Assembly: GCA_027858915.1 (NCBI GenBank)
Contig: JAQIBT010000165.1
Coordinates: forward strand, 1 to 64,000
Source of the DNA: Salinisphaera sp.
Lineage (GTDB): Bacteria; Pseudomonadota; Gammaproteobacteria; Nevskiales; Salinisphaeraceae
DNA length: 64,000 nt
Direction of reading: 5' to 3'
The number at the start of each line of letters is the position of its first letter. The first letter of the stretch is position 1. Positions 30,028 through 38,495 of this stretch are shown one piece after another. The notes under the pieces are model-generated. The model did no database searches, was not told the DNA's origin, and saw only the letters and a list, made by a program, of their open reading frames with translations. A program made the position numbers and the translations under genes.

Positions 30028-30170
30028 TGAATTCGAACAAGGGGTCTATCCATACAGTCAACGCTGCCCAAGGCAGACTGCTACGGATCGGCAAAATGAC
30101 GCGCCTACTTGCCAGAAGTGGAGTTTAGGGCCATCTTCAGAGAGCAAGGTTAAATTGACGGAGGTTCGTG

Positions 30171-30485
30171 ATGCAGGGCTTCGAACTGGTATTCATTGCT
30201 CCGCGTTCGCGCCGGCATCACGGCACAGGCGTAATCGACGCGATCGCAAAATTAGCGCGGAAGCAGGGCATCAAGCGTATGACCCGTCGTGTCGATGCCG
30301 AAGGCACCGGTGCGCACGGGCATACCCATTCAGCACACTTCTTCGAACTGGCCGACGAGCCGGAAGAGTTGATGTTTGTACTCGACCGCGATGAGGCGGA
30401 CCAGCTTGTCGCTGCAGTTCGAGACAACGCGATGCACGTCTTCTGTCTGCGACGTCAGATCGAGTATTGGCAATTTGATAATTGA
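30171..30485 (+). CDS. PII-like (GlnB-fold) regulatory protein
   Basis: 104-residue protein beginning MQGFELVFIAPRSRRHHGTG. The alternation of strand-helix-strand, a loop rich in Gly and His (GTGAHGHTHSAHFFE) where PII proteins have the T loop, and the ending HVFCLRRQIEYWQF are those of PII-like proteins (DUF-type GlnB relatives that accompany membrane transporters). It lacks the Tyr and the full T-loop sequence of GlnB/GlnK. GGAGG lies 6 bases before ATG 30171. It lies 237 bases upstream of the hydrogenase-related complex on the same strand, suggesting it regulates that complex; family call moderate, role inferred. Confidence 0.6.
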   Translation: MQGFELVFIAPRSRRHHGTGVIDAIAKLARKQGIKRMTRRVDAEGTGAHGHTHSAHFFELADEPEELMFVLDRDEADQLVAAVRDNAMHVFCLRRQIEYWQFDN

Positions 30486-30570: not shown

Positions 30571-30599
30571 TTGACAGTTTCTGAGGGTCGATGTAATTT
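30571..30599 (+). promoter_or_regulatory. Candidate sigma-70 promoter of the Ehr-like operon
   Basis: A perfect TTGACA (30571-30576) is followed after exactly 17 bases by TAATTT (30594-30599), 123 bases before the GTG of the first membrane subunit. The -35 is consensus, the -10 weak. A palindrome CCAGTT-AA-AACTGG at 30497-30510, just after the PII-like stop, may be an operator or weak terminator. Confidence 0.4.
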
Positions 30600-30721
30600 G
30601 CACATAAGGCAAAGGGGTTTGCCACAGCGATTGCTGAAACCGCTCTGACAAAGCTAATGACTCCTCCAGATTCGTAACCGAATTGATCCGCACGCAACTG
30701 TGTGGGCTGGAAGGAGTGTAT

Positions 30722-31684
30722 GTGTCGCCGACCGTCACACATCTTGTCGTAAACCTGATTCAGGTTGCTTTTCTGCTGGTCTTTGCGCCGCTGCTGAAGG
30801 GCGTTCTCGAGCGGCTTGAAGAAATTATCCAGGGCAAGCGGGGGCCGAGCGTATTCCAGCCCTACCGCGATATCTACAAGCTGTTCGGCAAGGACGAGAT
30901 CGTTTCCCAGGATTCGACCTGGGTGTTTCGGTTTGCGCCGATCATTCATTTCGTCATGCCGATCTTCGTGGTCCTGCTGATACCGGCGCTCACCACGATG
31001 CCGCTGTTCTTTGCCTTCATGGGCGACATGCTGTCGGTGGGCTTCTACCTGTCGCTCGGCGGCTTTTTCATTGCCCTGGCGGCGCTGGATACCGGCAACG
31101 TCTACGGACCCGTAGGCGCCAGCCGCTCGCGAATGGTCGGCTTTCTCTCCGAGCCAGCCGCGATTCTGGTCTATTTCACGCTGTCCTACGTCGCCAATTC
31201 GACTATTCCGTATGTCGTAACGGCCTCTTGGGCGCAGTCCTGGGCGAGCATGCTGGAGCCGGCGCACCTGCTGGTGGTGATCGCATTTTTCCTGCTGATC
31301 CTCGCCGACGAAGGGCGTATTCCGGTCGATAGCCCGTCCGGCAAGGTCGAGATCGCCATGATCGGCCATTCCAACTATCTGGAATATTCGGGAACCAGCG
31401 CAGCACTGATCAAATGGGGCGGCGCGCTCAAGCTCATGGTGTTGATGATCATTTTCCTCAACGTGCTGGTCACCCCTTGGGGATTGGCGAGCACGCTGCA
31501 CTGGGCGGACGTGCTGTGGGCCATTCCCAAGGTGCTGGCCAAGATGTTCATATTTCTTGTGGCGCTGGCCGTGATTGAAAGCAGCCTTGCCAAGCTACGC
31601 CTGTTCCGGATCGGCGAATATCTGGCCGCCGCTTTTGTCATTTGCCTGTTTGCCATGGGCGTGCGCCTGGTAGGCATCGCATGA
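30722..31684 (+). CDS. HyfC-like (NuoH family) membrane subunit of hydrogenase-related complex
   Basis: 320-residue integral membrane subunit of the HyfC/HycD/NuoH family, which in complex I and group 4 hydrogenases links the soluble arm to the proton-pumping modules. About eight hydrophobic helices. The first cytoplasmic loop has LEEIIQGKRGPSVFQPYRDI, the hydrogenase-type equivalent of the quinone-site loop of NuoH, and RIPVDSPSGKVEIAMIGHSN occupies the position of the Nuo[12 protein letters not shown] loop. The start is GTG 30722 with AAGGAG 5 bases upstream; earlier in-frame codons lack such a site. The stop overlaps the next gene (ATGA). First gene of a six-gene operon. Confidence 0.88.
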   Translation: MSPTVTHLVVNLIQVAFLLVFAPLLKGVLERLEEIIQGKRGPSVFQPYRDIYKLFGKDEIVSQDSTWVFRFAPIIHFVMPIFVVLLIPALTTMPLFFAFMGDMLSVGFYLSLGGFFIALAALDTGNVYGPVGASRSRMVGFLSEPAAILVYFTLSYVANSTIPYVVTASWAQSWASMLEPAHLLVVIAFFLLILADEGRIPVDSPSGKVEIAMIGHSNYLEYSGTSAALIKWGGALKLMVLMIIFLNVLVTPWGLASTLHWADVLWAIPKVLAKMFIFLVALAVIESSLAKLRLFRIGEYLAAAFVICLFAMGVRLVGIA

Positions 31685-32364
31685 TGCCCGCTAGCTTCGA
31701 CATCGCCTATGCGCTGGACGGTTTTTTTGCGGCGTTCTTTGTGTTGTTCAGCGTTGGCATTGTGGTTGCACGGCAGATGCGTGGCGCGTTGTTTCTTTTT
31801 GTCCTGCACGCGCTGGCCTTGACGGCTTCGGCGATTGTGCTGGCGATTGCGCTCGACAGCCCGCATCTCGGCTGGGTGGCGCTGATCACTTTCTCGACCA
31901 AGGCCATCGCCGTACCGCTGGTGTTGCGTTGGGCAGCCGGTCGCAAGCTGCACGAGCGCCGCGAAGTGGATCACGTATTGACGATCACTTTCTCGCTGCT
32001 TATCGCGGCCGTGCTGGCGTTGATCGCCTGGGTGACCATCGAACCGCTGGTTCAGGCGATTCCCGGTCGGCCGTTTGCGGCCATCAATCTGCCGACTGGC
32101 CTGATCGCGATTTTTTTCGGCGCTTTCACCGTCACCGTACGCCGAGAGGCGATGGTCCAGCTCATGGGCCTGCTGGTCATGGAAAGCGGTGCGTTCTTTG
32201 CCTCGATCTCGATTGTTAACGATCTGTCGGTCATCGCCGAAATCTCGGCGGCCGTGGACGTGCCCATCGCCGCGATGGTGATCGGTTTGCTCATCCGCAA
32301 CATCAACCGCGTGGCAGGGTCCACGCGGGTCGGACATATGGCCGACCTTAAGGAGCACAACTGA
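31681..32364 (+). CDS. HyfE-like membrane subunit
   Basis: 227-residue, highly hydrophobic protein (about seven helices) of the HyfE family, whose C-terminal part corresponds to NuoK. Recognisable stretches are FFAAFFVLFSVGIVVARQM and QLMGLLVMESGAFFASISI, the latter carrying the membrane-embedded Glu (LLVMESG) equivalent to the NuoK Glu36 needed for proton transfer. ATG 31681 overlaps the previous stop; a second ATG follows at once. The stop shares one base with the next start (TGATG). Confidence 0.86.
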   Translation: MMPASFDIAYALDGFFAAFFVLFSVGIVVARQMRGALFLFVLHALALTASAIVLAIALDSPHLGWVALITFSTKAIAVPLVLRWAAGRKLHERREVDHVLTITFSLLIAAVLALIAWVTIEPLVQAIPGRPFAAINLPTGLIAIFFGAFTVTVRREAMVQLMGLLVMESGAFFASISIVNDLSVIAEISAAVDVPIAAMVIGLLIRNINRVAGSTRVGHMADLKEHN

Positions 32365-33824
32365 TGCTGGTGTTGATTCTGGTCATTCCAGCAGTGGTCG
32401 CGCTGCTGACGCTGGCCAGCCGGCGTCTCGCGCCGTGGCTGACGCTGGCCGGCATGCTCATCGGGCTGGGGCTGGCGATCGTCAACGCGTTACGGGTCGC
32501 CCACGGCGGCATCATCCATGGGGCCTACGGCACGCTCTCGCTCGATCCCCTGGGCGCGCTTTATCTGTTGGTAGTGGCTTTTGTCGGCGTCACCGCCGCG
32601 CTCTATGGCATCGGTTACCTGACCGCGCGCATGGCCGAGCTCACCGAAGACGATCCGCCGCCGCGCTATCGACAGTATTTCCCGTTGTTCAATCTGTTTC
32701 TGCTGTCGATCATGGCGGTACCGCTGGCTTCGAATCTGGCCGTGATCTGGATCGCTATCGAGCTGACCACGGTTTTTTCGGCGTTTCTGGTGGCCTACGA
32801 CGACGGCAGGCAGGCGCTGGAAGCGGCCTGGAAATACGTGGCCCTGACCAGCATGGGCGCGATGATCGCGCTGCTCGGCGTATTGATTCTGTACTACGGG
32901 ATCAACCATCAGGGGCAACCGATCACCTGGCAGGGATTGCAGCAGGCCGCGCCGCATTTGCCGGCCGCGGTGCTGCTCATTCCCTTCGTGCTGTGGCTGA
33001 TCGGCTTTGGCGCCAAGACCGGCCTGGTGCCGCTGCATACCTGGCTGCCGGATGCTCACAGCCAGGCGCCGGCCTCGGTCTGTGCCGTGCTGTCGGGCGT
33101 GGAAGTGAGTGCCGCGCTTTACATGCTGCTGCGGATCTATCCGGCGCTGGTAGCCAATCCCGGCATTGTCAATCCGGAAATCTGGTATCTGGTGGCCGGG
33201 CTGATCACGGTGGCGACGTCGGCGTTCCTGCTGTTGCAGGTGCATGACTACAAGCGGCTGTTTGCTTATTCCACGATCGAGCATATGGGCATCATCCTGG
33301 CCGCCTGTGGGCTAGGCGCCGGCGGGCATCAACTGGGCACGGTCTACCAACTGTTTGCCCATGCGTTCACCAAATCGTTCTGTTTCTATGCGGCAGGCCT
33401 GGCCACGCTCGTTTTTGGAACACAAAAGATAGCTGCGGTCGGCGGCCTGCTGGGCCGGGCGCCGGTGGTCGGTTGGGCGTTGTTGCTGGGCGCCATTGCC
33501 ATTGCCGGCGCGCCGCCGTTCGCACTGTTCATCTCCGAGTTCGAGATTCTGCGCACCGGCTTTGCCGCCGGCCAGTATGCGGCGACGGGTGTATTGACCA
33601 CGCTGATCGTATTGGCTTTTGTTGCCATCGTTTATCAGGCTGGACGTATTGTGTTCGGAGAACCTGTCGTGGCCGACGGGTATCAACCGCCGCCGCTGCC
33701 AAAGACCAGCATGGTCGCGCTAGCAATCGCTTTTGTGCCGGTGCTGGTATTCGGCTTCTATCTGCCGCCGCCGTTGATGTCGCTGGTCCATCAGGCCGCG
33801 CTGATTCTCGGAGGGCCGACATGA
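32364..33824 (+). CDS. HyfF-like antiporter-type subunit (NuoN/NuoL family)
   Basis: 486-residue proton-translocating antiporter-like subunit of the HyfF type. It has about 14 transmembrane helices with the family core FGAKTGLVPLHTWLPDAHSQ then APASVCAVLSGVEVSAALYM, including the conserved Lys in the broken helix TM7. The helix-5 Glu is in IWIAIELTTVFSAFLVAYDD, and the second-half motif is YKRLFAYSTIEHMGIIL. All key charged residues for pumping seem retained, which argues that the complex conserves energy. Starts one base after the previous gene ends and overlaps the large subunit start by 4 bases. Confidence 0.92.
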   Translation: MLVLILVIPAVVALLTLASRRLAPWLTLAGMLIGLGLAIVNALRVAHGGIIHGAYGTLSLDPLGALYLLVVAFVGVTAALYGIGYLTARMAELTEDDPPPRYRQYFPLFNLFLLSIMAVPLASNLAVIWIAIELTTVFSAFLVAYDDGRQALEAAWKYVALTSMGAMIALLGVLILYYGINHQGQPITWQGLQQAAPHLPAAVLLIPFVLWLIGFGAKTGLVPLHTWLPDAHSQAPASVCAVLSGVEVSAALYMLLRIYPALVANPGIVNPEIWYLVAGLITVATSAFLLLQVHDYKRLFAYSTIEHMGIILAACGLGAGGHQLGTVYQLFAHAFTKSFCFYAAGLATLVFGTQKIAAVGGLLGRAPVVGWALLLGAIAIAGAPPFALFISEFEILRTGFAAGQYAATGVLTTLIVLAFVAIVYQAGRIVFGEPVVADGYQPPPLPKTSMVALAIAFVPVLVFGFYLPPPLMSLVHQAALILGGPT

Positions 33825-35419
33825 GTACAGCAAGCGGGATAAGCAATCTGGCGCAGGCGCTACGAGACCAGCACGCCGATACAACGATTCACGATCGCGG
33901 CGACCGACTGCTCATCGAGGCGTCGACCGATCGCCTCTACGATCTTGCTGTCGCCCTCACGAGCGATCACGGCTGCGAGTTTGCGGATCTGGCCATAGAA
34001 CAACACGCCGAACAAGACGCCGAAGAAGACACGGCGTCGTTCACCGCACGCTATTTCTTTTACGCAGATACCGGCGTGCTGGTAGAAATAGTCACTGCAA
34101 GCACAAACGCCGAGTTGCCCGCAATCAGCGATCGCATCCACGCGGCTGACTGGCACGAACGCGAAGCCGAGGACATGTTCGGCATTCATTTCACAGGCCA
34201 CCCGTTCATGGGCGATTTTATCCTCCACGATACGGTCTGGCCAGAAAACGTGGCGCCGATGCGGCGTGGTTTCGATCACGGCGAACGCGTGTCGGAAAAA
34301 GGGCTGGGCGAAGACTGGCAGCCGCCGCGGTTGATCGACGAACCAGGTCTTTTCGCTTTTCCGGTGGGCCCGATCTGGTCCGATTACGCCGAGTCGGGGC
34401 TATGGATATTGGAGACCCCGGGCGAACATATCCATCAAGCCCATACACGGCTGTTCTATAAATTTCGCGGCGTCCAGAAAATCGCCGAGGGCCAGTCGAC
34501 CGGACAAGCGTTGCTGCTCGCCGAGCGTTTTTCCGGCAGCTCGGCGTTTGCGCATGGCCTGGCCTATTGCCAGGCGCTGGAAAAGCTGGCGGGTTGTGAA
34601 GTGCCGGCACGCGCGCAGATGCTGCGGGTGATTGTTGCCGAGTTCGAGCGCATCCGTTATCACGCCATGACCATCGCCGAGTTGGCCGGCTCGACCGGAT
34701 TGGCGGTGGGCAAGGCCCGCGGCCAGGACATCGAAGAGACGCTGCTCCGGCTTTCCGGCGAGGTGTTTAGCCATCGTTATCTGTTCGGATTGATCGCTCC
34801 CGGTGGATTGGCTTGGGCACCAGATGACGAGGCGCTGGCGCGGCTTGATCATGGCCTGCAGGCCGCGGCCGAAGAACTCGAACAGCTGGAGCGTTTGCTC
34901 ACCGCCAGCTCCAGCTTTCTCGACCGCATCGAGGAAATGGGCGGGCTTTCGACCGAAGACGCTGTGCGCTACGGCACGTTAGGTCCGGTTGCACGCGCGG
35001 CCGACCGCACGCTCGATCTGCGCGTCTCGCTGCCCTACGGGATCTACGACCGGCTGAAAGTCACGGTTGCCCACGAAACCGAAGGCGACGGCTATGCCCG
35101 CATGCGCGTGTTCTTCAGCGAAATCCGCGTCAGCGCTGCGCTGATTCGCGATCTCTTATCGCGGTTGGAAGACGGCCCGTTCGCGGCACCGTTTGAAGTG
35201 GTGCCCGGCGCGGCCCTGGGCTGGGTCGAGGCCCCAGCGGGCGCCACATTCCACTGGTTGCGGGTGGACGAAGCCGGATTGATCGCCCGCTGGCAGGTTG
35301 CCGCGCCCAGTTTTCGCAACTGGCACGCGTTTCAACAAGTGTTCGACGGCGCTGCGTTTCAGGATTTCCCGATCATTATGGCCAGCTATGGCTTGTCCGT
35401 CGCGGAGAACGATCGATGA
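33821..35419 (+). CDS. HyfG-like large subunit lacking nickel-ligand cysteines (NuoC-NuoD fusion)
   Basis: 532 residues: an N-terminal NuoC/HycE-N domain with DWHEREAEDMFGIHFTGHP (residues 110-128), then a NuoD/HycE catalytic-type domain. In group 4 [NiFe] hydrogenases the first nickel motif reads ERVCGICGFAH; here residues 235-245 read ERFSGSSAFAH, so both cysteines are Ser (238 and 241). The C-terminal motif DPCxxCTDR is replaced by GLSVAENDR, the cysteines becoming Ser526 and Glu529 while the final Asp-Arg remains. The protein therefore cannot hold a NiFe site. This places it with Ehr-type complexes (energy-converting hydrogenase-related), intermediate between hydrogenases and complex I. 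Substrate unknown. Confidence 0.9.
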   Translation: MSTASGISNLAQALRDQHADTTIHDRGDRLLIEASTDRLYDLAVALTSDHGCEFADLAIEQHAEQDAEEDTASFTARYFFYADTGVLVEIVTASTNAELPAISDRIHAADWHEREAEDMFGIHFTGHPFMGDFILHDTVWPENVAPMRRGFDHGERVSEKGLGEDWQPPRLIDEPGLFAFPVGPIWSDYAESGLWILETPGEHIHQAHTRLFYKFRGVQKIAEGQSTGQALLLAERFSGSSAFAHGLAYCQALEKLAGCEVPARAQMLRVIVAEFERIRYHAMTIAELAGSTGLAVGKARGQDIEETLLRLSGEVFSHRYLFGLIAPGGLAWAPDDEALARLDHGLQAAAEELEQLERLLTASSSFLDRIEEMGGLSTEDAVRYGTLGPVARAADRTLDLRVSLPYGIYDRLKVTVAHETEGDGYARMRVFFSEIRVSAALIRDLLSRLEDGPFAAPFEVVPGAALGWVEAPAGATFHWLRVDEAGLIARWQVAAPSFRNWHAFQQVFDGAAFQDFPIIMASYGLSVAENDR

Positions 35420-35644
35420 CAGAACCTCGGATCGGCCCGTGCACGGTCGCGCAAAGGCCCGGCCCCACGCTACGCGTGCATGCTTCGCATGGGGTTTGGC
35501 CCAAGCCGCCCGCCTGCGGTGTTACCCGGCTCGACCGCGGGGCCCGCCACGGCGCATCGCCGGGCGCTTTGCAGGCAGACGGCTTGCCTAGTCAATTTTT
35601 TCTAGGCAAACGCGGTCCGTAGACGGGCCGATCAGAGGTTACTC
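35420..35644. other. Repeat-like insertion between large- and small-subunit genes
   Basis: The otherwise gapless Ehr-like operon has a 225-base interruption here. It contains palindromic runs (GCATGC-TTCG-CATG near 35478-35492; TTGCCTAG/CTAGGCAA at 35584-35591 and 35602-35609 around a T-rich loop). A 68-codon frame starting at an ATGA overlap (35416-35622) has an Arg/Gly/Pro-rich product with no family and is probably not a gene. The composition resembles the hairpin-rich sequence at 1-770. Confidence 0.45.
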
Positions 35645-36364
35645 GTGGCTAACTGGGTATTCCATAGCTTGTCGCGCGGTATTCGCACCACGCGATGGCC
35701 AACAGATCCCGAAACCGCGGCCGGTGTAACGCCCGGGCGCCCGCGCGCAGGCGTCGGTTCGGCGGAATTGGCGGCGCGTTGCCCCACCGAGGCGCTGTTC
35801 CCGCACGACAACGGCGTGGGCGTCGATTTCGGCCACTGCGTGCACTGTCAGCGTTGCCGGCACGGCGACGAAGCGCTGGCCTGGGAACAGGATTTTACCT
35901 GGACCAGCAAGCCCGAGCAGGGCCGCGAGGCACTGCCCGCACGTTTCTCGCGTTCGATCCACGTGCGCTATATCGATGCCGGCGCCTGCGGCGGCTGCAT
36001 GGGTGAAATCCGTCTGATCGACGCGCCCGCCTACAACATGCACCGCGTGGGTATTTTCATCACCGCAACGCCGCGCGACGCCGACGTGCTGCTGGTGGGC
36101 GGCCCGGTCACCGAGGCCATGCGCGAACCATTGCGCAAGGCTTATGAGGCCATGCCGGAGCCCAAGCGCGTGGTCGCCATGGGCGTATGTGCGATCAACG
36201 GCGGCGTGTTCGGCACCAGCTTTGCCAGCGCCGGCGGCGTCGCGGCCGAGATTCCAGTAGATCTGGTCATTCCCGGCTGCCCTCCGCCGCCGCTGGCGAT
36301 TATCCACGCGCTGCTCGCGGTTACCGGTCGAACCGAGCCGGCCGAACTGGTAGAAAACCCATGA
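35645..36364 (+). CDS. HyfI-like small subunit with fused one-cluster ferredoxin domain
   Basis: 239-residue protein. Residues 1-75 resemble a shortened NuoI/HyfH ferredoxin: it opens MANWVFHSLSRGI, then Cys46-Pro and a CxxCxxC at 65, 68 and 71. Those four would hold one [4Fe-4S] cluster; the other half of the two-cluster ferredoxin is missing. Residues 100-239 are the NuoB/HyfI domain with the N2-type cluster ligands Cys115, Cys118 (GACGGC), Cys182 (MGVCAINGG) and Cys212 (PGCPPPP). The CxxC spacing is hydrogenase-like rather than the CC of NuoB. Start is GTG 35645 with AGAGG upstream. Supplies the electron wire of the Ehr-like complex. Confidence 0.88.
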   Translation: MANWVFHSLSRGIRTTRWPTDPETAAGVTPGRPRAGVGSAELAARCPTEALFPHDNGVGVDFGHCVHCQRCRHGDEALAWEQDFTWTSKPEQGREALPARFSRSIHVRYIDAGACGGCMGEIRLIDAPAYNMHRVGIFITATPRDADVLLVGGPVTEAMREPLRKAYEAMPEPKRVVAMGVCAINGGVFGTSFASAGGVAAEIPVDLVIPGCPPPPLAIIHALLAVTGRTEPAELVENP

Positions 36365-36383
36365 ATGCCGGAGGTCGACACAC

Positions 36384-38495
36384 ATGAACTGCATCGCTTT
36401 CGGTTACGCCGCGCTTGGTTTTGCGTTGCTGGCGCTGATCTGCCCCAGCGCAAGACTCAGCCGAGCCGCTTATCTGCTGGGCGCCTGGGCAGCGACCGTG
36501 TTGTTGTTGATCGGCGCGGGTCTCGCGCTGGCCGGCGCAGCGTCCTTCGATCTCAACCTGCATCTGTCGATCCTGCCGGCGCTGGGCTTTACGCTCGATC
36601 CGCTGCGTGGCTTTTTCATCGGGATTTCGGCGGCAGTGTACGGGCTGTCGATTGCGTTCATCACGCGCGAGGCGAAAATCTATCCGTCGGGCCACGGCCG
36701 GGGATTGCTGGCCTGGACTACCGTGTTGTTTGCATCGCTGCCTGCGATTGCGCTCAGCGCTACCGTGCTCAGCCTGATATTCACCTGGGAAATCATGTCG
36801 CTCGCCCTGTGGGCGCTGATCAGTTTCGATACGCGCAATCCGAACAGCGTCCGGGCCGGCGTTCTCACCCTGGCCGTTTCCGAGGCCGGCGCCCTTGCGG
36901 CACTCGCTGGCCTCTTGATTCTGGCAAATGCTGCGGGCAGTTCCAATCTGGCGGCAATTGCTGCGGCTGCCGACCACATGTCGCCGGGCGTGATATGGGC
37001 CGGTGTCTTGCTGACGTTCTTCGGCTTTGGCGTCAAGACCGGCATTCTGCCGGTCAACCTCTGGATGAACGAGGGCTATGCGGCTGCACCCGCCAGCCTC
37101 AGGCCGCTATTCTCCGGGGCGACCATGAACCTCGGCGTATTCACGCTGTGGATCGTCGACGGCCCGTTGGCCAGTCACGCGCTATGGCCGGCGCTGGTCA
37201 TCCTCATCGTCGGCGCGCTCACCGCTATCCTCGGCATCATCTATGCCCTGACCGAACACGAACTCGGGCGACTGCTGACCCAGAGCTCGATCGAGAACCT
37301 CGGCGTCGTAGTCGCGGCACTCGGTGCAGGCTTTGCATTCGTAGCACTCGACAAGCCGATTCCGGCCGGCATTGCCCTGGTTGCCGCGCTATATCACATG
37401 CTCAACCATTCAGCGTACAAGACGCTGCTGTTCATCGGTGCCGGCGGCATTCAGAGCGCTGCCGGCACCGACGACATGGATCGGCTGGGCGGTTTGATGA
37501 AGCATCTGCCGGTCTTCGGCACCCTGTTTCTGCTGGGCGCGCTGGCGATTGGCGCACTGCCGCCGTTTAACGGCTTTGTCAGCGAATGGCTCACGCTGCA
37601 GTCGCTGCTACGCATCATCGAAGTGACTGCCATACCGGTACGAATCGTGTTTGCCCTGGCCGGCGCCGCACTCGCCTTGACTGCAGGGCTGGCGCTGACC
37701 TGCTTCATCATGCTGGCCGGCAGTACGCTGCTCGGCCTGCCGCGCTCCGCCAAAGCCGCGCAAGTACGCCATATACCGGCGAGCGCGACCGCGCCCATGG
37801 CCATCCTCGTGGTTGTCTGTCTTGCCTTGGGCGTGCTCGCTACCGCTGTGATCCCGGTGCTCGGCTCCTTGGTGGCACCACTCACCGGCACTGACCCGAC
37901 CTCTGCGCTGGTGCCGGCTTTTTTCCACGGCGCACCGGCGCTGGCGCCGAAAATCGCGGCTAGTCTGGCGCCGATCGGCACCCAGGTCGGCGAGGGCATC
38001 CTGCCGCTGCGCGGGTTGGCCGTGCTGCATTCAGGCGGGACGGCCACGCCGGTAATTTATGCCATATCGACCGCGTTGAGCTTTGCGGTGATTGCGTCGC
38101 TGCTGTTGCTGGTCTGGCTTCTGAGCCGCTTGCTCGGTCGTCGACGCGTACAGCGTGGCAGGGTCTGGGACGCAGGTCTGGTCCGCCTGCGACCCGAGAT
38201 GACCTACAACGCTACCGGCTTTGCCGCACCCGTGCGCACGGTTTTCGGTTCCCTGCTACGCCCCACCGTGACAGAACATGTCGAACGCCACGGTGCTTTT
38301 GCGACAGCCTGGCACCGCAAGACGCTGACGGTACATATTGTTGACCGACTCGCTCTGCATCCGCTGATGTCGGTCATGCAGCATAGCGCGGCGCTGCTGG
38401 CGCGCATGCAGCACGGTCGTGTCAACGCTTATGCCGGTTACGTGCTGATGGCGCTGGTCGCCGTTTTGATTGCCGCCACCGCCGCACTTCACTGA
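36384..38495 (+). CDS. HyfB-like antiporter-type subunit (NuoL/NuoM family)
   Basis: 703-residue proton-pumping antiporter-like subunit. The core matches HyfB: FTWEIMSLALWALISFDTRN with the TM5 Glu, FFGFGVKTGILPVNLWMNEG with the TM7 Lys, and YHMLNHSAYKTLLFIGAGGI. The C-terminal 200 residues add more helices and a cytoplasmic loop (GRRRVQRGRVWDAGLVRL), as in HyfB of E. coli. It lies last in the operon, whereas hyfB usually leads it in E. coli hyf. GGAGG is 9 bases before the ATG. No terminator is obvious between this gene and the convergent acyl-AMP ligase gene. Confidence 0.92.
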   Translation: MNCIAFGYAALGFALLALICPSARLSRAAYLLGAWAATVLLLIGAGLALAGAASFDLNLHLSILPALGFTLDPLRGFFIGISAAVYGLSIAFITREAKIYPSGHGRGLLAWTTVLFASLPAIALSATVLSLIFTWEIMSLALWALISFDTRNPNSVRAGVLTLAVSEAGALAALAGLLILANAAGSSNLAAIAAAADHMSPGVIWAGVLLTFFGFGVKTGILPVNLWMNEGYAAAPASLRPLFSGATMNLGVFTLWIVDGPLASHALWPALVILIVGALTAILGIIYALTEHELGRLLTQSSIENLGVVVAALGAGFAFVALDKPIPAGIALVAALYHMLNHSAYKTLLFIGAGGIQSAAGTDDMDRLGGLMKHLPVFGTLFLLGALAIGALPPFNGFVSEWLTLQSLLRIIEVTAIPVRIVFALAGAALALTAGLALTCFIMLAGSTLLGLPRSAKAAQVRHIPASATAPMAILVVVCLALGVLATAVIPVLGSLVAPLTGTDPTSALVPAFFHGAPALAPKIAASLAPIGTQVGEGILPLRGLAVLHSGGTATPVIYAISTALSFAVIASLLLLVWLLSRLLGRRRVQRGRVWDAGLVRLRPEMTYNATGFAAPVRTVFGSLLRPTVTEHVERHGAFATAWHRKTLTVHIVDRLALHPLMSVMQHSAALLARMQHGRVNAYAGYVLMALVAVLIAATAALH

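Follow-up and report, generated by a model that had tools for sequence, protein, structure and literature searches.

What does a hydrogenase-like complex do once all of its nickel ligands have been replaced, and why would its genes lie behind an RNA that senses fluoride? These questions are raised by a 64,000-nucleotide (nt) stretch of Salinisphaera sp. (assembly GCA_027858915.1, contig JAQIBT010000165.1, positions 1 to 64,000, forward strand), referred to here as the window, in which six genes resembling those of hydrogenase-4 (Hyf) encode an Ehr-type complex of the hydrogenase/complex I lineage. An initial annotation had described the six genes as contiguous, and Pfam and NCBIfam comparisons confirmed all six on the + strand at 30722-38495. 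When the full window was compared with Rfam, a single match came up, a feature the annotation had not seen: a fluoride riboswitch (RF01734) whose aptamer has its 3' end 49 nt upstream of the HyfC start. The reading favored here, at a probability of roughly 0.6, is that the operon would encode a fluoride-induced, nickel-free, redox-driven ion pump that restores pH and proton-motive force upon entry of hydrogen fluoride (HF). The operon and its leader comprise the following features.

30599..30673, + strand: fluoride riboswitch aptamer RF01734 (34.9 bits, cut-off 34)
30709..30716, + strand: HyfC Shine-Dalgarno stretch, predicted by RNA folding to be sequestered by the 3' pseudoknot strand of the aptamer when fluoride is absent
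30722..31684, + strand: HyfC/NuoH-like membrane subunit, GTG start (PF00146, NADHdh, 5.8e-30)
31681..32364, + strand: HyfE-like membrane subunit (NF008556, 3.6e-16, under its cut-off)
32364..33824, + strand: HyfF-like antiporter subunit (PF00361, Proton_antipo_M, 6.9e-47)
33821..35419, + strand: HyfG/NuoCD-like large subunit with a NuoC domain and without nickel ligands (Complex1_49kDa and 30kDa)
35645..36364, + strand: fused ferredoxin-like and NuoB/HyfI-like small subunit (HyfH/I-like), GTG start (PF01058, Oxidored_q6, 3.7e-27)
36384..38495, + strand: HyfB-like antiporter subunit (PF00361, 4.1e-38; NF005086, 1.4e-123, under its cut-off)

Apart from this aptamer, the genome to which the window belongs (G000, 4.3 Mb) gave no RF01734 match. 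According to the predicted fold, occupation of the pseudoknot lowers the pairing of seven of the eight Shine-Dalgarno bases while one stays paired, and this release of the ribosome site fits a translational ON switch for HyfC. The leader fold is not unusually stable, with 18 of 200 shuffled sequences folding equally well.

In order to place the operon, relatives were sought in a species-level genome collection; the best 80 of 219 (77 loci) were kept, and two further relatives were taken from relatives of the window's genome. Large-subunit motifs defined three types, named in this analysis: type 1, that of the window, with ERF[SA]..AFAH and GLS.AE.DR, and type 2, with ERVSGV.S.AH and GLTIAGCDR (both with small variations), and type 3, with SGD or CGD and N.SYSG.D. 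A tree of 59 rows (48 from the main alignment, genomes G007 and G037, and nine references) put types 1 and 2 each on one side of a branch (100/100), joined the two with 100/97 support, and set type 3 next to them with E. coli HycE and HyfG outside (100/99); long branches, flagged by the tree program, leave the deep order uncertain. Wherever a type 1 or type 2 locus extended far enough to display it, the gene order was C-E-F-G-HI-B, HyfE being sometimes too divergent to call. Since this order and the fused small subunit recur in types 1 and 2, they are marks of the clade, and an order that had been described as unusual is not odd within it; the accompanying suggestion of a distinct subtype is supported by the tree. 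The tree, together with the lost nickel ligands and the pump residues described below, likewise supports the Ehr-type assignment.

Some variation in cluster architecture was also seen. Three loci end in a tandem pair of HyfB-like antiporter genes (L012 11060-15386, L013 2374-6704, L027 11206-15708), suggestive of an extra pumping module, and in Acidithiobacillus marinus (L019 10572-13430) the HyfI-like and HyfB-like parts share one frame of 952 amino acids (aa), perhaps a gene fusion. In the window, the 225-nt gap between HyfG and the small subunit (35420-35644) contains what looks by eye like inverted-repeat sequence.

The riboswitch link extends across the clade. A model built from seven aptamers, the window's included, was run over 80 sources, with 72 HyfC starts considered, one of them dropped for lying off its locus end, and nine loci without a HyfC start. 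Each of the 49 type 2 starts was preceded on the same strand by a match no more than 600 nt away, and in 43 cases no more than 150 nt away; when two weak type 2 matches were put to Rfam's own model, L067 was confirmed and L050 fell under the cut-off. For type 1, matches lay within 300 nt upstream of 8 of 19 starts and within 1.2 kb of 15. The match density in the loci would predict about 0.016 matches per start within 300 nt. Type 3 had no match before any of three HyfC starts nor anywhere in the three loci, although type 3 genomes can contain riboswitches: the genome of L030 has an over-cut-off match outside the L030 stretch, and G037, a type 3 genome, has one match below the cut-off. In a first batch of seven loci, Rfam's own model found a riboswitch in six, and the one locus without a match was of type 3. 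Furthermore, the pseudoknot lies outside the search model, yet 98.5% of its cells pair and four of its five pairs changed on both sides, as judged from 107 matches in 53 of the 80 sources, which include all riboswitches therein and not only those before HyfC.

Fifty of the 77 loci, one of type 3, come from 49 genomes, of which 47 had RF01734 over its cut-off, against 57 of 398 genomes drawn evenly across the phylum (Fisher p 7e-32, a guide only, as the sets differ in make-up). Within the window's genus, the two of 14 genomes with a type 1/2 Ehr cluster were exactly the two with RF01734 (Fisher p 0.011). Among nine plasmid clusters hand-picked from 86 records with a match, three of type 2 (two Burkholderia, one Caballeronia) had a riboswitch shortly before HyfC and none of the six other nickel-less Ehr clusters did. 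A link so nearly constant within the clade points to fluoride stress rather than to uptake of dissolved inorganic carbon (DIC) or to a generic missing link between hydrogenases and complex I.

The composition of the operon raises a second possibility, that it encodes a genuine formate hydrogenlyase or group 4 [NiFe] hydrogenase. 'Formate hydrogen lyase' genes are among those that Weinberg 2010 (PMC2864571) places behind the crcB motif, and a 2024 review repeats this link, sets it among metabolic shifts to fermentation and draws it from an earlier paper, taken to be Baker 2012. The subunit set is indeed that of a group 4 hydrogenase, with two NCBIfam matches below their equivalog cut-offs (HyfE against the hydrogenase-4 membrane subunit, 59.7 bits, cut-off 136; HyfB against hydrogenase-4 subunit B, 413.7 bits, cut-off 667), and the best solved chain for the large subunit is E. 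coli HycE (7z0s_E, 1.8e-52), also the top match with a three-sequence profile. Alignment of the large subunit, however, placed Ser238, Ser241, Ser526 and Glu529 of the window at the positions of HycE Cys241, Cys244, Cys531 and Cys534. Across 98 Ehr rows (the window and 97 relatives, three rows being truncated at two of the four positions), 97 had no cysteine at any of the four and one, L030, had a single cysteine. The predicted loss of all four ligands thus held at every position, and since 96 of the 97 relatives share it, an assembly error behind it is very unlikely and was dropped.

Accessory genes also speak against a hydrogenase. No HypD match was found in the window's genome, which is 99.6% complete, by a search that does find E. 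coli HypD, and the operon has neither a formate dehydrogenase (FDH) gene nor a separate HyfA/HycB-like gene. The earlier statement that FDH genes are lacking nearby needs one addition, since FDH is not missing from the genome: two FdhA-like genes exceed the cut-off on another contig. One of these adjoins NuoE- and NuoF-like genes, as is the case for NAD-linked enzymes, and this arrangement speaks against a formate hydrogenlyase. A survey of 77 type 1 and 2 stretches (the window, L009 and 75 loci, many truncated) yielded an FDH query match in one and a HypD match in none; HycB matched in 16, where the query may have picked up the ferredoxin portion of the fused small subunit. With HypD not found and the four nickel cysteines lost, a true hydrogenase was dropped, its probability being close to nil.

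The same alignment bears on the electron acceptor. The columns of the quinone-binding His and Tyr of NuoD hold Ala and Gly in the window; the Tyr occurs in 0 of 98 rows (2 gaps) and the His in one (5 gaps), in a column that lies within a variable loop. As both the nickel cysteines and the quinone His and Tyr are absent, the site matches neither a hydrogenase nor complex I.

Residues needed for pumping, by comparison, are retained. HyfB E136, K218 and K346, HyfF K218 and K337, and HyfC E144 and E221 are invariant among the aligned letters, E. coli included, while HyfF E133 is Glu or Asp in 77 of 78 sequences and HyfE Glu168 is invariant across 75 aligned sequences, again with E. coli. On the strength of these residues the membrane arm looks able to pump, and the expectation that the antiporter subunits had kept their lysines and glutamates is borne out. 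Cysteine motifs likewise bear out the fused small subunit as a trait of the type 1/2 clade: the proximal-cluster motif and the fused ferredoxin domain are retained where readable (some open reading frames are cut or start too early), with one ferredoxin [4Fe-4S] motif in type 1 and two in type 2. The type 3 small subunits seen lack the fused domain, and a Pfam scan of the window's small subunit found no ferredoxin domain over its cut-off.

Conserved antiporter residues would also be expected of a fluoride-induced ion exchanger, in which the antiporter subunits act without redox chemistry, as in Mrp, and the peripheral arm is structural. According to a review, Na+/H+ antiporters are the next commonest riboswitch-linked class after exporters, and the small subunits of type 1 have one ferredoxin cluster fewer than those of type 2, which have two. 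Yet the cysteines of the proximal cluster and of at least one ferredoxin cluster are kept wherever readable and would not be expected to last without electron transfer, which leaves this exchanger unlikely.

The redox-driven pump rests on what can be read from the sequence, namely the position of the riboswitch, the loss of nickel ligands, the riboswitch link across the clade, the kept pump residues and the Fe-S cysteines, and would operate as follows. HF would cross the membrane, release F- and H+ inside and drain the proton-motive force on which export by CrcB or CLC depends. Fluoride would free the ribosome site of HyfC, and a soluble low-potential donor (ferredoxin or similar) may then dock on the fused ferredoxin domain and give up electrons, which would travel by way of an N2-like cluster to an acceptor that occupies the old NiFe/quinone cavity, as a first guess a quinone bound otherwise than in complex I. 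With the energy released, HyfB, HyfF and HyfC could expel protons (or Na+) and so return cytoplasmic pH and proton-motive force to normal.

Several points weigh against this reading. With the quinone His and Tyr of complex I absent, quinone as acceptor is a guess, and the need for a second pump is unexplained, the organism already having the NuoCD of complex I (a canonical copy in the window, near 49.3-50.5 kb). The window aptamer exceeds its cut-off by merely 0.9 bits and has two non-standard pairs. Three type 1 loci (L018, L024, L027) had no riboswitch by either the seven-aptamer or the Rfam model, and in L021, also type 1, the riboswitch lies 1.8 kb from HyfC with a dynamin-like gene in between. 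The link is also rare from the riboswitch side: of 64 over-cut-off riboswitches in the 57 of 398 phylum genomes, one is the window's, and a search of the other 63 stretches (about 9 kb each, some cut by contig ends) gave a Hyf match in none and CrcB or CLC somewhere in 50. The association is one-way, in that a type 1/2 Ehr cluster nearly always comes with a riboswitch and a riboswitch rarely with an Ehr cluster. The low aptamer score and the type 3 loci without a match would suit an Ehr complex unrelated to fluoride, with the RNA match a matter of chance or a relic. Nevertheless, the match is the sole one in 4.3 Mb and lies 49 nt upstream of HyfC, and nearly all examined clade members have one; chance placement before HyfC is unlikely, and this account as a whole is very improbable.

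The neighboring genes bear on two further alternatives. Just upstream of the riboswitch the window has one additional feature of interest.

30168..30485, + strand: DUF190 (PII-like) gene (PF02641, 30.9 bits, cut-off 23.4)

A PII-like gene beside NuoL-like subunits could indicate a DIC-uptake module, and relatives in Acidithiobacillus and Nitrococcus are autotrophs by name. However, DUF190 adjoins crcB in G007 (crcB by Pfam) and in L012, where riboswitch, crcB, DUF190 and hyfC follow in one run, and both genes occur often in the clade; furthermore, the type 2 hosts Paraburkholderia, Mesorhizobium and Labrys are not known to be autotrophs. DIC uptake was set aside on account of DUF190 beside crcB in these relatives and is regarded as highly improbable. 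The earlier interpretation thus stands as to the Ehr type, the lost ligands, the kept pump residues and the distinct subtype, and the riboswitch, which it had not seen, points to fluoride stress.

Across the 77 stretches CrcB occurred in 42, DUF190 in 51, enolase in 18, CLC in four and pyrophosphatase in one, and at least one of CrcB, CLC, enolase and pyrophosphatase in 48. The window keeps DUF190 only among neighbors of the CrcB/DUF190/CLC/enolase kind; the single CrcB of its genome lies on another contig, and at least one CrcB was found in all 41 genomes of that search. Clusters on Burkholderia multivorans and B. cenocepacia plasmids are accompanied by inorganic diphosphatase and DUF190, in B. 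cenocepacia also by crcB. The recurrence of enolase would be in keeping with a complex running in reverse, in which electrons are pushed uphill, at the expense of proton-motive force, to a low-potential carrier that the cell requires once enolase and lower glycolysis are blocked by fluoride, and group 4 relatives are known to be reversible. Spending proton-motive force under HF stress would be expected to worsen that stress, and among the recurrent neighbors no low-potential consumer was seen, though no search was aimed at one; reverse operation is judged quite unlikely.

Compared with known systems, the window operon is closest to the Ehr complexes, which PMC6349859 describes as having group 4-type subunits and Mrp-like subunits, as having lost the Ni/Fe-coordinating residues, and as being suspected of redox-coupled transport. 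Among those examined, only the type 1/2 clade combines the order C-E-F-G-HI-B, the fused ferredoxin/small subunit and the fluoride riboswitch, whereas the other Ehr clusters begin with B or with I-B and gave no riboswitch match. E. coli hydrogenases 3 and 4 (Hyc/Hyf) and formate hydrogenlyase share the subunit set, yet the window operon lacks their CxxC pairs, HyfA/HyfD and FDH, and Hyc/Hyf fall outside the Ehr clade. Respiratory complex I has a homologous membrane arm and Q-module with the same pump residues, unlike which the window operon has no NADH module. The riboswitch-linked 'formate hydrogen lyase' of Weinberg 2010 and Baker 2012 probably represents the same genes, a Hyf-like operon behind the crcB motif, but the name and its fermentative reading fit poorly with a clade that has no hydrogenase active site, and 'formate hydrogen lyase' looks to be the wrong name for types 1 and 2.

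The gene link between the fluoride riboswitch and Hyf-like operons is therefore already in print, under a seemingly wrong name. New as far as searched are the identity of these operons as a nickel-free Ehr clade, the predicted fluoride control of types 1 and 2 and not of the other Ehr clusters examined, and the place of the window in the type 1 branch. In the literature searched, which included few subscription papers, no paper paired a hydrogenase-related complex with fluoride, and among papers on fluoride together with hydrogenase-4, formate hydrogenlyase or Acidithiobacillus none was seen to connect fluoride with such a complex, so that priority is not proven. PMC3826726 calls the role of an extra HyfBCEFG in Acidithiobacillus caldus 'less obvious'.

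Most Ehr complexes have no shown role, and a fluoride switch before one clade offers an inducer and a testable phenotype. The findings challenge the fermentation account in the fluoride review and suggest that bacteria can defend themselves against fluoride in part by actively rebuilding their proton-motive force, with relevance to acid bioleaching bacteria and defluorinating strains; they also point to a natural relative of complex I with a catalytic site unlike both NiFe and the known quinone site. The chances appear about even that the clade adds a third arm to fluoride resistance, next to exporters and spare enzymes: a dedicated proton pump of hydrogenase/complex I lineage that is redox-driven and free of nickel, made only under fluoride, with Ser/Ser/Ser/Glu in place of NiFe, and misnamed 'formate hydrogen lyase' since 2010.

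Several further features were observed around the clusters. Type 1 and type 2 clusters adjoin in L015-L020, L023, L024 and L029 (Acidithiobacillus and some metagenome-assembled genomes), often with crcB between them and in some cases DUF190 as well. A TMEM175-type channel gene (by Pfam on the L016 copy) lies downstream of the Acidithiobacillus Ehr cluster in L015, L016, L017, L019 and L083. At eight loci (L056 4816-5481 and relatives) a neighbor recurs that is about 220 aa long and has no Pfam match, and a dynamin-like query matched in five of the 77 stretches. The Burkholderia plasmids L197 and L198, the latter typed as conjugative, carry fluoride islands with several riboswitches that hold Ehr, diphosphatase, DUF190 and dynamin-like genes. 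On the Caballeronia plasmid (L199 11813-13263), the Ehr cluster is closely followed by a CLC gene that has a second fluoride riboswitch directly in front of it.

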